Source: Sphingomonas sp. Leaf20
Lineage (GTDB): Bacteria; Pseudomonadota; Alphaproteobacteria; Sphingomonadales; Sphingomonadaceae
Reading direction: 5' to 3'
NCBI RefSeq assembly: GCF_001421535.1
Contig: NZ_LMKN01000001.1
Span: 1,586,267 to 1,650,266 of the forward strand
DNA length: 64,000 nucleotides
The translations under genes were made by a program, and so were the position numbers. The notes beneath the pieces are model-generated. The model saw only the letters and a list, made by a program, of their open reading frames with translations. It did no database searches and was not told where the DNA came from. Shown here in pieces: positions 2,251 through 7,558 of the stretch (its first letter is position 1; every line of letters starts with the position of its first letter).

Positions 2251-4419
2251 CTAATACCGGTCGCTCGAATAACGATCGGTTGGAACGCGGTCGCGCGCCG
2301 GATCGCGCTGTAGCGGCTGGCGCCCCGGCGGGACCTGCTCCCGCGTCCGCGGGTCACGCGCCGGGTCGCGGCCGGTCACGCGGTCGATCCAGTCCTGATT
2401 GAGCTGCTGTGCCGGTGCGGCAGACGGCGTACCCGACGGATCGGCCTCGGGCCGCGGTAGCGCGTCACCCGTCTGCGCGTCGGTCGGCACGTCCTGCGGC
2501 ATGCCGCTCTCGATCGGGTTGCCATTCTCGTCGACCATCATCTGGCCGTTGTCGGGTTGCCCGAAATAGCTCTCCTCGTCGGGCTCCAGCTGCCATTCGG
2601 GCAGCGTCACCTGTGTCTCGAACTGCTCGATCGGCCGGTCCGCGGTCGCGGGCTTCATGAACGCCGCCCAGGCGCGCGCGGGCGCGGTGCCGCCGTGCAG
2701 CCCCGCGATCGGTCGTGCATCGTCGCGTCCCATCCAGACGCCAGTGGTGATCCCGCTCGAGAAGCCGAGGAACCAGCCGTCCTTGGAGGCGGTCGTGGTA
2801 CCCGTCTTGCCCGCCACCGGACGACCGATCTGCGCGGCGCGCCCGGTTCCGGTGTTGACCGCGGTCTGCAACAGGTCGGTCATCTCGGCGGCGACATAGG
2901 GCGCGACGAGCACATGGCTGCGATCGACCTCATGCGTGTAGATCGTCTGGCCGTTCGAGGTGACGCGCGTGATCCCGTATGGGGTCACCGCGATCCCCTT
3001 GCTCGCCACGCTCGCAAAGGCACGCGTCATGTCGATCACGCGCGTCTCCGACGTGCCCAGCACCATCGAGGGATGCGTATTGACCGGCGTCGTGATCCCG
3101 AACCGCCGCGCCATGTCGGCGACCGTCGTGAACCCGACCTCCTGGCCGAGCTTCGCCGCCACCGTGTTCAGCGAATAGGCGAACGCGGTGCGCAACGACA
3201 CAGGCCCCGAATTGCGCCGCGAATCGTTGCGCGGCGTCCATCCGTTGATCGTGACGGGTTCGTCGACGATCGAATCCTCGGGCTTGTGACCCGCCTCCAG
3301 CGCCGCGAGATACACGAACAGCTTGAACGACGATCCCGGCTGGCGGACCGCCTGCGTGGCGCGGTTGTAGATCGACGAGACATAATCCTTGCCGCCGACC
3401 ATCGCCTTGACCGCACCATCGCGGTCGAGCGCGACGAGCGCACCCTGCGCGCCGGCGGGCGTGTTCGCCCGGATCGCGGCATCGGCGTGGCGCTGCATCG
3501 ACAGGTCGAGCGTCGTCCACACCTCGAGCGGTGCCTCGGTCTCGTCGATCAGCGTATCGAGCTGCGGAAGCGCCCAGTCGGTAAAGTAGCGCACGCTGTT
3601 CTGCCTGGGCTCGGGCGCGAGCTTGAGCCCCTGAACGTCCGCGTCGGCGGCCTCGCTGGCCGAAATCACCCCCGTCTCGGCCATCGTCTGCAACACGACG
3701 CCCGCACGACCCACCGCGGCCTCGGCATCGGCGGTCGGCGAATAGTTGGACGGCGCCTTGACCAGCCCCGCAATCACCGCAGCCTCGGCCAGCGACAGAT
3801 GATCCGCGCCATGGCCGAAGAACTTGCGCGATGCGGCGTCGATCCCGTACGCGCCGCCGCCATAATAGACCTTGTTCAGGTACAGCTCGAGGATCTCGTC
3901 TTTGCTGAACTTGCGCTCCAGCGCGAACGCGAGGATGCCCTCCCGGAATTTGCGCCCGAACTTCTTCTGGTTGTTGAGGAAGACGTTGCGCGCCAATTGC
4001 TGGGTGATCGTCGATCCGCCCTGCGTCCAGTGCCCGCGATCGAAGCGGACCTTGACCGACCGCGCGATGCCGACCGGGTCGACGCCGATATGCGACCTGA
4101 AGCGGCGATCTTCGACCGCAATCGTCGCGTCGCGCATCACCGCAGGGATCTGGCCATAGGGCAGCCATTCGCCGAAGCTCGGCCCCATCGACACGATCAC
4201 GCTGCCATCGGCGGCATGGACGCGGATCATCTGTCCATTGGGAGACGATTTGAGGCTTTCGAAGCTCGGCAGCTGCGATCGCGCGATGTACACGGCGATC
4301 ACGAGCGCACCGAAGGCAAGCACAGCGAGGCCGATCAGCACCTTCAGGAGGAGGACAAGTCGGCGGCGCCATGGGGAGCGAGGCCGAGGGGAGCGGGAAG
4401 CGGGACGCGCGCGAGCCAT
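2251..4419 (-). CDS. Class A penicillin-binding protein (PBP1A-type), glycosyltransferase plus transpeptidase
   Basis: 722 residues. A basic cytoplasmic start leads to one membrane segment (about 20-46). The GT51 glycosyltransferase domain follows with EDRRF (catalytic Glu about 103) and 'GGSTITQQLARN'. The transpeptidase domain has SSFK (nucleophile Ser about 363), SLN and KTGTT. It polymerises and cross-links peptidoglycan in the periplasm. The last 100 or so residues are Pro/Asp/Arg-rich and look disordered, with repeated DPARD and DRYSSDRY, and probably lie outside the catalytic fold. The gene is upstream of no other minus-strand gene at its 3' side; the polyketide operon lies just upstream of it. 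Confidence 0.95.
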   Translation of the reverse strand: MARARPASRSPRPRSPWRRRLVLLLKVLIGLAVLAFGALVIAVYIARSQLPSFESLKSSPNGQMIRVHAADGSVIVSMGPSFGEWLPYGQIPAVMRDATIAVEDRRFRSHIGVDPVGIARSVKVRFDRGHWTQGGSTITQQLARNVFLNNQKKFGRKFREGILAFALERKFSKDEILELYLNKVYYGGGAYGIDAASRKFFGHGADHLSLAEAAVIAGLVKAPSNYSPTADAEAAVGRAGVVLQTMAETGVISASEAADADVQGLKLAPEPRQNSVRYFTDWALPQLDTLIDETEAPLEVWTTLDLSMQRHADAAIRANTPAGAQGALVALDRDGAVKAMVGGKDYVSSIYNRATQAVRQPGSSFKLFVYLAALEAGHKPEDSIVDEPVTINGWTPRNDSRRNSGPVSLRTAFAYSLNTVAAKLGQEVGFTTVADMARRFGITTPVNTHPSMVLGTSETRVIDMTRAFASVASKGIAVTPYGITRVTSNGQTIYTHEVDRSHVLVAPYVAAEMTDLLQTAVNTGTGRAAQIGRPVAGKTGTTTASKDGWFLGFSSGITTGVWMGRDDARPIAGLHGGTAPARAWAAFMKPATADRPIEQFETQVTLPEWQLEPDEESYFGQPDNGQMMVDENGNPIESGMPQDVPTDAQTGDALPRPEADPSGTPSAAPAQQLNQDWIDRVTGRDPARDPRTREQVPPGRQPLQRDPARDRVPTDRYSSDRY

Positions 4420-4492
4420 GAAGGGTTGACGAATTACGCCTTATCCGGCCCGCCGACAAGCGTTTCGACCGCGCGGCCTGCCGCGGTGCGTT

Positions 4493-5578
4493 TCACCCGC
4501 CGATCCGCGTCGCCCGTGCGAGCATCCGGATCAGCATGGGATGCGCGAACGGGATCAATCGCGCGGCAGCGGTGCTTTCCGCCACCCGCCGGACCGCGCC
4601 TGCGACGCCGATCGGGCGTGCCAGCGACGCCGACAATCGCTGCTGCCACGCGGCGGCGTTTCCCGCGCCGTCGGCCCGGTACGCCCGCGCCGCCGCCAGA
4701 CCGCTTGCAAGCGCGATCCCCATGCCCTCGCCCGCGAGCGACGGGATGACGCCCGCCTGATCGCCCAGCCGGTATCGCCCCGCCTGCCCCGTCCGCTGCC
4801 GCCAGCCATAGGGGACGTTCGCAATCGCATCGATCGCAGCCCCGGGCGCGAGCCTGGCGACCCATTCCCCCAGCGCCGGCATCTCGCGCCCGAGCGTCGC
4901 CAGCAGGTCCGCGGGCGATCCTGCGTCCTGCAAGCGTGACCGGTGGACCGCCATGCACAAATTGGCGCTGCCATCCTCCTGCAAGGCGAGCCCCGCATAG
5001 CCACGATCGAACAGGTACAGGTCGATCCGCCCTGCCAGGGCCTTCGCCAGTGCCGGGGACGGGATCACGCGGACGCGGATGCCCAGCGTCGGATCGGCGC
5101 CGCGTGCCGATTCGGGGCGCGCTGTCCCGCGCACATCGGCCTTCCCGTTTGCAAGGAACAGCGCCGGCGTCGTGAGCAGCGCGCCATCCGCGGTCCGCAG
5201 CCGGTCCGCCTCGATCTCACGCACGGTCACACCGCGCTCGATCGCCGCGCCCTGCCCGGCCGCCGCCGCCAGCAGCACCGTATCGAGGTGGCGGCGCGAT
5301 ACCGAGACCGCAGGGTAAGGCAGATCGGCGCGCGCGATGCGGTCGCCGGCGAAGATCCGGACCGCGGTCGTCCGCACCGGGTTGAGCGTGTCGGGATCGA
5401 TCCCCAGCCGGGCGAGCGTCTCGAGCGTTCGCCAGCTCAGGAACCCGCCGCACAGCGCATCGCCCGTGACGCGACTGCGCTCGAGCAGCAGATGCGGGAC
5501 GCGCGCCCGCGCGAGGTCGATCGCGACCGCCGCCCCCGCCGGCCCGCCGCCGACGATCAGCGCGCGCGTATCGGTCAC
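4493..5578 (-). CDS. FAD-dependent oxidoreductase (geranylgeranyl reductase/UbiH-like)
   Basis: 361 residues from a GTG start whose GTGA overlaps the methyltransferase stop. The N-terminus has the Rossmann dinucleotide motif GGGPAGAAVA (about 10-19) followed by a typical 'LLLER' Glu that binds the ribose. A second FAD contact 'GDQAGVIPSLAGEGMGIALASG' lies in the C-terminal third. The family includes aromatic hydroxylases and isoprenoid reductases. Its place as the last gene of a type III PKS operon suggests it oxidises or hydroxylates the polyketide product. The substrate is not deducible from the sequence. Confidence 0.85.
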   Translation of the reverse strand: MTDTRALIVGGGPAGAAVAIDLARARVPHLLLERSRVTGDALCGGFLSWRTLETLARLGIDPDTLNPVRTTAVRIFAGDRIARADLPYPAVSVSRRHLDTVLLAAAAGQGAAIERGVTVREIEADRLRTADGALLTTPALFLANGKADVRGTARPESARGADPTLGIRVRVIPSPALAKALAGRIDLYLFDRGYAGLALQEDGSANLCMAVHRSRLQDAGSPADLLATLGREMPALGEWVARLAPGAAIDAIANVPYGWRQRTGQAGRYRLGDQAGVIPSLAGEGMGIALASGLAAARAYRADGAGNAAAWQQRLSASLARPIGVAGAVRRVAESTAAARLIPFAHPMLIRMLARATRIGG

Positions 5579-6276
5579 CGCAGGCGTTCGACGCAGAGGC
5601 GGAACGGAAAGGCCCGGAACACGCGCGCGTCGGCGATCCCCGCCTCGGCCAGGATCGCCGGCCATTCATCCGGCCGGTACGAGCGCGCGATCGACAGCGT
5701 CCCGTCGTGACGGACGATCGGATGCCAGCGCGCCAGTCTCGCCAGGATCGGATAGCCCCAATGGGCAAAGCCGTGGCGATGCAGATCGTTGACCATCCAG
5801 CACCGCGCATTGGCCTCCATGAAGCGCAGGAACGCGATCAGCTGCGCATGGCTCATGTGATGCGCGACCAAACTGCTGATGACGGCGTCCCACCGCGGTT
5901 CCGCATCCGGTTCGCCCGCAAGCTCCGCATAGTCCCCGGTGACGTAGCGGATCGTCGACCCGGGCGCGGTGTGTGCCCGCGCTGCCTGCTCGCTGCGCGG
6001 ATTGAGATCGACGCCGACCAGTTCGGTCTGCAGCCCCCTCGCCGTCGCCCAGCGTTCGATCGTCCGCAGCATGTCGCCGTCGCCGAACCCGACATCGAGC
6101 AACCGCAACCGCTTCCGGTTCGCGGTGATGCGGTTGAGAAACGCCAGGGTAGGCCGCGCGGCCATGGTGACGACGTTGACCCTGGCCAGATCGGCGACCA
6201 CCGCCGCGTAGGTTTCGGGCGCGAGATCGTCCGCGTCCATCAGTTCCTCGTCGAGCGCGCGGACCGCGAGGCTCAT
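5575..6276 (-). CDS. Class I SAM-dependent methyltransferase
   Basis: 233 residues. SAM motif I is 'LLDVGFGDGDML', with acidic motif II in 'LVGVDLNPRSE' and the post-motif region 'WDAVISSLVAHHMS'. Its ATG overlaps the PKS stop by ATGA and its stop overlaps the next gene by GTGA, so all three are translationally coupled. In type III PKS loci such enzymes usually O- or C-methylate the polyketide ring. The exact target is inferred from position only. Confidence 0.87.
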   Translation of the reverse strand: MSLAVRALDEELMDADDLAPETYAAVVADLARVNVVTMAARPTLAFLNRITANRKRLRLLDVGFGDGDMLRTIERWATARGLQTELVGVDLNPRSEQAARAHTAPGSTIRYVTGDYAELAGEPDAEPRWDAVISSLVAHHMSHAQLIAFLRFMEANARCWMVNDLHRHGFAHWGYPILARLARWHPIVRHDGTLSIARSYRPDEWPAILAEAGIADARVFRAFPFRLCVERLR

Positions 6277-7376
6277 GGTGCGCTCCGGAAGCCCAGACCT
6301 TCCGCCGCAAGCCCCGGTCCGAACGCGAGTGCCACCCCGCGCTCGATCCGCGGGCCCGTCAGAAGCCGCTTCAGGACGAACATCAGCGTGGCCGACGACA
6401 TATTGCCGTTGTCGGCCAGCACCGCGCGCGAGGCATCGAGTGCGTCGGGTTGCAACGCCATCGCATGCGTGACCGCATCGAGGATCGATCGCCCGCCGGC
6501 ATGGACCGCCCAGCCATCGATCGTCTCGGCGGGCTGTCCCCCGCTGGCGGCGGCCCGGAACGCAGGATCGGTCAGCGCCTGCGCAATCCGTCCGGGGACT
6601 TCGCCCGACAGATGCATCGCGAACCCCGCATCGGTGATGTCCCAGCGGATCAGGGCCTCGCTGTCTGGCAACGTCGTCGCGAACGGCGCCTGCAATTCGA
6701 ATCCGATCGGCTCGGCGGTGACCAGCGCCGCCGCCGCCCCGTCGCCGAACTGGAGCATCGCGAGGAGTGGCTCGATCTCGGATACCGCCTGCAGGTGCAA
6801 CGTCGACAATTCGACGGTGACGACGAGCACGCGTGCGTCAGGATCGGACCGCACGATATGACGCGCGCTGCGCAACGCGACGATCGCGGCGTAACACCCC
6901 ATGAATCCGATCAGCAGTCGTTCGACCGAGGACGAAAGCCCGATCTTCCGCGCGATGATCTGGTCGATTCCCGGCGCGACGAACCCGGTACAGCTCGCCA
7001 CGACGAGATGCGTGATCGATCCGAGCGCCATCTCATCCTGCAGCGTGCCGATCGCGTCGATCGCGAGACGTGGCGCCGCCTCGGCATAGATCGCCATCCG
7101 GTCCGCGGTTCCGGGATGCGGCACGGTCGCATAAAAGCCGCCCGCGTCGACGGGCGATCCGGGCGTCGTGTCGGGCAGGTCGCGCAAGGTCGGCGGCAGC
7201 ACCGACCAGCGATGCGCGATACCCGATCGCGCCGCCATCCTGTCGAACAGCCTGGCGGACGCGGGATCGACCCGCGACCGCGCCCAGCCGATAAAGGCAT
7301 GATGGATGTCATGATCGGGCACGGCGGTCCCGATCGCGTTCAGATACACCGGCACGGCAGACAGACGGGGAGTCAC
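6273..7376 (-). CDS. Type III polyketide synthase (chalcone/stilbene synthase family)
   Basis: 367 residues from a GTG start. The catalytic triad of the family is visible: Cys129 in 'VASCTGFVAPG', His292 in 'WAVHAGG' and Asn325 in 'DNGNMSS'. The thiolase-like two-domain fold is of normal length. These enzymes extend an acyl-CoA starter with malonyl-CoA and cyclise the chain, commonly to alkylpyrones, alkylresorcinols or similar phenolic lipids in bacteria. It is the first gene of an operon with a methyltransferase and a flavoprotein; no dedicated transporter or regulator is adjacent. The product is unknown. Confidence 0.93.
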   Translation of the reverse strand: MTPRLSAVPVYLNAIGTAVPDHDIHHAFIGWARSRVDPASARLFDRMAARSGIAHRWSVLPPTLRDLPDTTPGSPVDAGGFYATVPHPGTADRMAIYAEAAPRLAIDAIGTLQDEMALGSITHLVVASCTGFVAPGIDQIIARKIGLSSSVERLLIGFMGCYAAIVALRSARHIVRSDPDARVLVVTVELSTLHLQAVSEIEPLLAMLQFGDGAAAALVTAEPIGFELQAPFATTLPDSEALIRWDITDAGFAMHLSGEVPGRIAQALTDPAFRAAASGGQPAETIDGWAVHAGGRSILDAVTHAMALQPDALDASRAVLADNGNMSSATLMFVLKRLLTGPRIERGVALAFGPGLAAEGLGFRSAP

Positions 7377-7558
7377 GATAACCTTTCGTACGTTCCCCTG
7401 CCCAACGCTTGATGCAGGACGATCGGACCGGATCGCCGCTATATCAATTGCTCGGGGACCGCAAAAACGGTTTCGTCAGGCGTTTGCGTACGGTTCAGCC
7501 GTGCGAACCAGCGGACCCGGCAGCAATCCCGGTCGCGGGATACGCGCCGGCGTCAGCG

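Follow-up and report, generated by a model that had tools for sequence, protein, structure and literature searches.

We analysed a window of 64,000 nucleotides from the genome of Sphingomonas sp. Leaf20, in which the genes for a type III polyketide synthase (PKS), a class I S-adenosylmethionine (SAM)-dependent methyltransferase (MT) and a flavin adenine dinucleotide (FAD)-dependent oxidoreductase form a well-conserved operon with overlapping genes (Table 1). The three overlapping minus-strand genes, which had been noticed in a preliminary description of the window, were borne out by the open reading frames (ORFs). In the sequence we read ATGA at 6276-6273, where the stop of the PKS gene meets the start of the MT gene, and GTGA at 5578-5575, where the MT stop meets the start of the FAD protein. 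All three products scored above the Pfam cut-offs, the PKS for Chal_sti_synt_N/C, the MT for Methyltransf_25 and the FAD protein for FAD_binding_3. No second type III PKS was found in the Sphingomonas sp. Leaf20 genome by a whole-genome profile search, which returned a single PF00195 match.

The linkage of the three genes, which the preliminary description had proposed to compare across sphingomonads, proved to be conserved. Among the best 80 of at least 539 PKS relatives in the genome collection (PKS identity 67-81%; hereafter the close relatives), 78 of which bear sphingomonad-type names, homologues of the MT and the FAD protein adjoin the PKS without exception. The PKS and MT genes overlap by 4 nt in 69 of these loci, and in 76 both junctions fall within -40 to +60 nt on one strand. 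The upstream neighbours of the trio are variable, and no upstream ORF cluster (the ORFs were not profile-scanned) covers more than 21 of the 80. Two of the loci (L024 and L033) carry a sphingomonad-like trio followed by a penicillin-binding protein (PBP) gene in records titled Microvirga sp. SRT01 and Bacillus sp. 2B10, which are probably misnamed or contaminated genomes.

Table 1. Features of the locus; positions are counted from the first nucleotide of the window.
Feature	Position	Strand	Remarks	Basis
Type III PKS gene	6273..7376	-	367 aa, GTG start	ORF, Pfam
Class I SAM-dependent MT gene	5575..6276	-	233 aa, ATG start	ORF, Pfam
FAD-dependent oxidoreductase (putative ring hydroxylase) gene	4493..5578	-	361 aa, GTG start	ORF, Pfam
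Presumed promoter region of the operon	7377..7558	-	lies before the PKS gene	inferred, position only
Class A PBP gene (Transgly + Transpeptidase)	2251..4419	-	neighbour, judged not part of the system	

Enzyme families and active site

The PKS possesses a complete Cys-His-Asn triad. Its nucleophile is Cys161 in the motif GFMGCYA (codon at window positions 6896-6894), which aligned with the cysteine of the QQGC motif of plant type III PKSs, and the triad is completed by His292 and Asn325. Each of these residues is kept in 105 of the 107 orthologue rows, the remaining two being gapped or mis-extracted. The active site had previously been read as Cys129/His292/Asn325; the latter two residues stand, but Cys129 is ruled out as the nucleophile. 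It sits in an SCTGF motif, is likewise kept in 105 of the 107 rows (two gapped), and occupies what we take to be the site of Thr132 of chalcone synthase (CHS). The same number of rows, again with two gapped, retains Trp245 and Met254, presumably the counterparts of ArsB Trp281 and ArsC Met293, as assigned via their spacing and not by alignment. The AlphaFold model of the PKS has a mean predicted local distance difference test (pLDDT) score of 92.2, and its structural matches are type III PKSs. We also considered whether the protein is DpgA (NF042429) and rejected this assignment (95.8 bits against a cut-off of 425).

The nearest NCBIfam model of the MT, PRK06202 / NF004851, was below its cut-off (136.2 bits vs 243), and the isoprenylcysteine carboxyl methyltransferase (ICMT) family (PF04140) was not among the Pfam hits of the MT at 0.001. 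The FAD protein was below the cut-off of the geranylgeranyl reductase family TIGR02032 as well (75.6 bits vs 158.8). Its structure model (mean pLDDT 90.4) retrieved the reductase AbsH3 first in the Foldseek list, and a second-look structural list was headed by PltA, Mpy16, ChlB4 and RadH (Z 33.6-35.8, 345-356 residues, root-mean-square deviation 2.7-3.2), while CmlS topped the profile list. In spite of this resemblance, we rejected a halogenase function. Both motifs that we take to mark halogenases, WxWxIP and one resembling FxDPxFSxG, were not found in the FAD protein when aligned with CmlS (GYAGLALQ vs GWVWMIPI, and IPSLAGEG vs TDPLFSQG). Since these motifs are missing and five of the nine named copies are annotated as FAD-dependent monooxygenases, ring hydroxylation is the function we favour for this putative ring hydroxylase.

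Distribution of the operon and of related synthases

In the sampled genomes, PKS identity to the window protein fell into two ranges, 49% and above or 37% and below. Members of the high-identity group were present in 20 of the 147 genomes sampled from the order, in 13 of 385 from the class and in 12 of 398 from the phylum; the three samples overlap, and each contains the genome of the window itself. The gap is not absolute, as plasmid-borne PKSs fall at 47.6-48.4% (Mesorhizobium and Paracoccus) and at 37-39% (Deinococcus and Paludisphaera). We examined two sets of loci, the first being 20 of the 31 distinct high-identity places besides the window's own (distant orthologues, L112-L131) and the second 20 of about 93 lower-identity places (L132-L151). 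Among the distant orthologues, the profiles found the gene order of the window, PKS followed by a class I MT and a FAD gene, at 19 of 20 loci, one of them outside the class of the window; tblastn at 1e-4 found both beside the PKS in 18 of 20. The profiles were built from alignments A1 (PKS), A2 (FAD protein, used without the L156 row) and A3 (MT), and thus include many of the first-set loci. These alignments are chosen subsets of 39, 38 and 39 rows, respectively; the majority of the 80 close relatives and part of the distant loci are absent from them, the mis-extracted L059 and L061 being left out of A1 and the short L158 FAD protein out of A2.

The lower-identity PKSs have a different partner. 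The profiles detected the pair of MT and FAD genes beside none of the 20 (L144 has a weak MT match ~2 kb upstream), and an ICMT-type gene (query PF04140) adjoins the PKS in 19 of them, L142 having none. In a maximum-likelihood (ML) tree of 69 rows, including 10 of the 80 close relatives, the trio PKSs formed a group (100/98) with those of Paludisphaera and Deinococcus and with a single PKS from Streptomyces, separate from the ICMT-linked clade; several of the outer rows have long branches, and their placement is unsure. Judged by gene content and phylogeny, the label 'T3PKS' in Alphaproteobacteria covers at least two separate systems, namely a PKS with an ICMT, which we take to be of BpsAB type, and a PKS with a class I MT and a FAD protein. 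A plasmid of Sphingomonas sp. R1 (L164:3794-5340) bears a PKS and an ICMT gene beside a DHA2 efflux gene; two type III PKS systems occur within the genus Sphingomonas. At L118, a PKS of the trio clade is accompanied, at a distance of about 3 kb and on the opposite strand, by an ICMT-type gene.

Pairwise distances of the three trio proteins correlate with each other (Spearman 0.84-0.89; 102 loci, with L117, L122 and L156 left out and no outside gene as control), which is partly explained by the shared descent of the hosts.

Named plasmid copies with the order PKS-MT-FAD were found in Roseomonas, Methylobacterium and Falsirhodobacter, the Methylobacterium copy having a DHA2 major facilitator superfamily (MFS) gene directly upstream. 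The copy on a plasmid of Sphingobium indicum adjoins outer-membrane, DHA2 and HlyD efflux genes. On a plasmid of Novosphingobium pentaromativorans (L159:4581-7101), the PKS gene is immediately preceded by genes for an acyl carrier protein (ACP) and a ketoacyl synthase, a hint that the starter is ACP-bound. The order PKS-MT-FAD is also seen in Deinococcus radiodurans, whose FAD protein (L156:7809-8948) is 21% identical to that of the window and has a strong FAD_binding_3 score; this different enzyme suggests that the flavin step may have been replaced. Glycosyltransferase and phospholipase D-like genes lie downstream of the Deinococcus radiodurans trio. Finally, a plasmid of Paludisphaera borealis (Planctomycetota) carries the genes in the order MT-FAD-PKS, and each of the three products is homologous to its window counterpart (PKS 38% identity, E 2.8e-57; MT 33%, 1.1e-16; FAD protein 27%, 5.3e-09). 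The Paludisphaera MT matches Methyltransf_25 and its FAD protein FAD_binding_3 in Pfam, as in the window trio.

Candidate product and known systems

Our best guess for the product is a phenolic lipid. The operon is probably a hierridin-like phenolic-lipid operon in which a long-chain 5-alkylresorcinol would be turned into an alkylhydroquinone lipid by methylation and ring hydroxylation. The PKS would take a long-chain fatty acyl starter (as a CoA or ACP thioester) and add three malonyl units to it, and closure of the chain by aldol condensation with decarboxylation would yield a 5-alkylresorcinol. The class I MT would then transfer a methyl group to either a hydroxyl or a carbon of the ring, and the ring would be hydroxylated by the FAD enzyme. 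The resulting methylated alkylhydroquinone, oxidisable to the quinone, may sit in the membrane or be exported. The direct basis of this proposal is the enzyme families, the catalytic residues of the PKS, the overlapping frames, the conserved linkage and the homology to the Paludisphaera operon; from these we infer the chain length, ring type, methylation site, hydroxylation and cellular role.

One of the closer precedents comes from planctomycetes, in which 58 of 96 PKS genes are reported to lie in an MT-oxidoreductase-PKS operon (PMC10896814). In that study, pentadecyl- and heptadecylresorcinols (C15/C17) were the products when PKSs from operons of this type or from variants of it were expressed on their own, and addition of the planctomycetal mtr and fdo genes to the PKS led to a single methylation, probably C-methylation (PMC10896814). 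The Paludisphaera copy, our stand-in for these operons, is itself a putative alkylresorcinol maker. The presence of Trp245, the presumed counterpart of an ArsB residue that resorcinol formation requires (PMC6274091), is consistent with such a product, and the first-ranked PDB match of the PKS by profile, Pks18, is likewise a long-chain enzyme.

Several observations weigh against the proposed alkylresorcinol-type product. In the planctomycetal study the FAD enzyme showed no detectable reaction (PMC10896814), and identity to the Paludisphaera stand-in is low for all three proteins. The model of the window FAD protein matches reductases, halogenases and monooxygenases or aromatic hydroxylases alike. 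As to the PKS, the profile search of the PDB ranked the long-chain enzyme Pks18, an alkylpyrone synthase, first, the top single-sequence match is a plant stilbenecarboxylate synthase, and the structural match list is dominated by plant enzymes; the solved relatives thus indicate no single product. A tryptophan occurs at the position of Trp245 in all 20 lower-identity PKSs too, 19 of them ICMT-linked, so that we dropped this residue as a diagnostic of resorcinol formation. Exceptions to the gene arrangement must also be counted. L118 lacks both the MT and the FAD gene, L117 and L122 carry only weakly similar ones, and the FAD protein of a Microvirga copy with PKS-MT-FAD order is a 229-aa remnant. 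On two Sphingobium plasmids (L152 and L167) the FAD gene follows the PKS gene on one strand with the MT gene convergent, and in Novosphingobium pentaromativorans the FAD gene follows the PKS gene with the MT gene upstream on the other strand.

The rank of Pks18, together with the lack of specificity of Trp245, would also fit an operon in which the PKS lactonises the chain to alkyl-alpha-pyrones, the MT O-methylates them and the FAD enzyme oxidises them. We consider such alkylpyrones unlikely, because the planctomycetal PKSs of the same operon make-up give resorcinols (PMC10896814) and because reciprocal exchanges in the Ars enzymes indicate resorcinols for enzymes with Trp at this place. According to a review (PMC6274091), the W281G exchange costs ArsB its resorcinols and brings pyrones, the opposite exchange in ArsC (G284W) raises resorcinols, and the Trp shifts Met293, nine residues further on; the spacing of nine recurs between Trp245 and Met254. 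The same pathway as proposed here may instead end in a benzoquinone that serves as an alternative electron carrier, like the polyketide quinones (PkQ) reported for mycobacteria and Streptomyces. This respiratory role appears quite unlikely, as homology to the srs operon is described for the mycobacterial cluster (PMC5916927), and the MT family of srs differs from that of the window MT. An exported allelochemical in place of a membrane lipid is suggested by the plasmid copies beside efflux genes in Sphingobium indicum and Methylobacterium, and yet seems improbable for the window, where the gene directly after the trio encodes a PBP and not a transporter and where the upstream neighbours vary among relatives.

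It had been proposed earlier that the operon has the layout of the srs phenolic-lipid operon, whose products alter beta-lactam sensitivity, and that a PBP gene lies right beside it, a hint at a functional tie. The class A PBP gene does lie beside the trio, on the same strand and 73 bp downstream, and a PBP homologue follows the trio in at least 69 of the 80 close relatives (a lower bound, since some loci are short). In 57 of the 80, msrB (SelR) follows the FAD gene. Among 16 genomes without a PKS orthologue (no PKS match at all, except for G132 with a lower-identity match only), msrB stands directly before the PBP gene in 14, the exceptions being G125 and G132; the same arrangement was seen in one of four genomes that carry the PKS orthologue at another place. 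Since these 14 relatives keep msrB and the PBP gene together, the PBP gene is an old neighbour of msrB, which the trio adjoins in part of the family, and the adjacency is uninformative on the function of the trio. Furthermore, no PBP homologue was found near the trio in 17 of the 20 distant loci by tblastn within the DNA fetched. In Stieleria maiorica, whose operon is without the oxidoreductase gene, deletion of the PKS is reported to leave ampicillin resistance unchanged; the authors still allow for an effect of fully oxidised alkylquinones (PMC10896814). We thus rejected a functional link to the PBP and, with the difference in MT family in addition, regard an srs-type operon tied to beta-lactam sensitivity as highly improbable despite the same three activity classes. 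The 73-bp gap of the window (4420-4492) contains no msrB; the genome has three msrB-like matches at other places (53% identity), and in one of them the matched sequence contains an in-frame TAG.

It is rather speculative, and on balance doubtful, that the operon makes a lipid quinol/quinone which serves sphingomonads as a second redox lipid beside ubiquinone, either as a membrane antioxidant or as an electron carrier in low oxygen or biofilms; the trio would then be a self-contained module, also spread by plasmids, with a flavin step that can be swapped, as the differing Deinococcus FAD enzyme would suggest. With the operon placed beside the hierridin and planctomycete type, and not with srs or the ICMT-linked synthases, there is a definite class of product to look for in connection with the PKS orthologues, which occur in 20 of the 147 sampled genomes of the order. 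At least one copy had already been flagged by antiSMASH: locus L009 of our close relatives lies within a region of Sphingomonas faeni MA-olki (QAYE01000004:254681-295745) that is listed as T3PKS with no named match (PMC8170138). 'Alkylresorcinol' has also been predicted from a Sphingomonas cluster that may be this operon or another (PMC9611098). Among the literature matches listed, there was no sphingomonad type III PKS whose product had been established by experiment, most subscription papers lying outside the search.

Related operons are known in other bacteria. The alphaproteobacterial pairs of PKS and ICMT genes resemble the window operon in a type III PKS with a linked methyltransferase; they are unlike it in the ICMT-family enzyme, in having no FAD partner in the loci examined, in a PKS identity of 27-35% and in forming a separate clade. 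ArsB and ArsC of Azotobacter share, by description, the Trp followed by Met, but the ars genes combine type I and type III PKSs (PMC5916927), whereas the window PKS has MT and FAD partners. The srs operon of Streptomyces griseus and the mycobacterial PkQ operon combine the same PKS, methyltransferase and oxygenase or oxidoreductase activities. The likeness to srs holds for the activity classes and their linkage but not for kinship by descent, an srsB homologue being described as an ICMT (PMC6669644) and the window MT being of class I. Because of this difference, hidABC and the planctomycetal operon are the closer precedents. The hidABC cluster of Cyanobium sp. LEGE 06113 and other hierridin-like clusters likewise consist of a type III PKS, a methyltransferase and an oxidoreductase; some of these clusters carry extra tailoring genes, unlike the window operon, and some are ordered hidC>hidA>hidB, which is less common than A>B>C and equals the gene order of the window (PMC8086630; HidABC is likened by description only). 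The planctomycetal mtr-fdo-t3pks operon has the same three activities, with the order MT-FAD-PKS instead of PKS-MT-FAD; the window proteins are homologous to the Paludisphaera plasmid copy, and the 38% PKS identity applies to Paludisphaera only. The operon of Sphingomonas sp. Leaf20 would best be grouped, as its pseudomonadotal branch, with the hierridin/planctomycetal alkylresorcinol type, a placement made via the Paludisphaera stand-in and not via HidABC.

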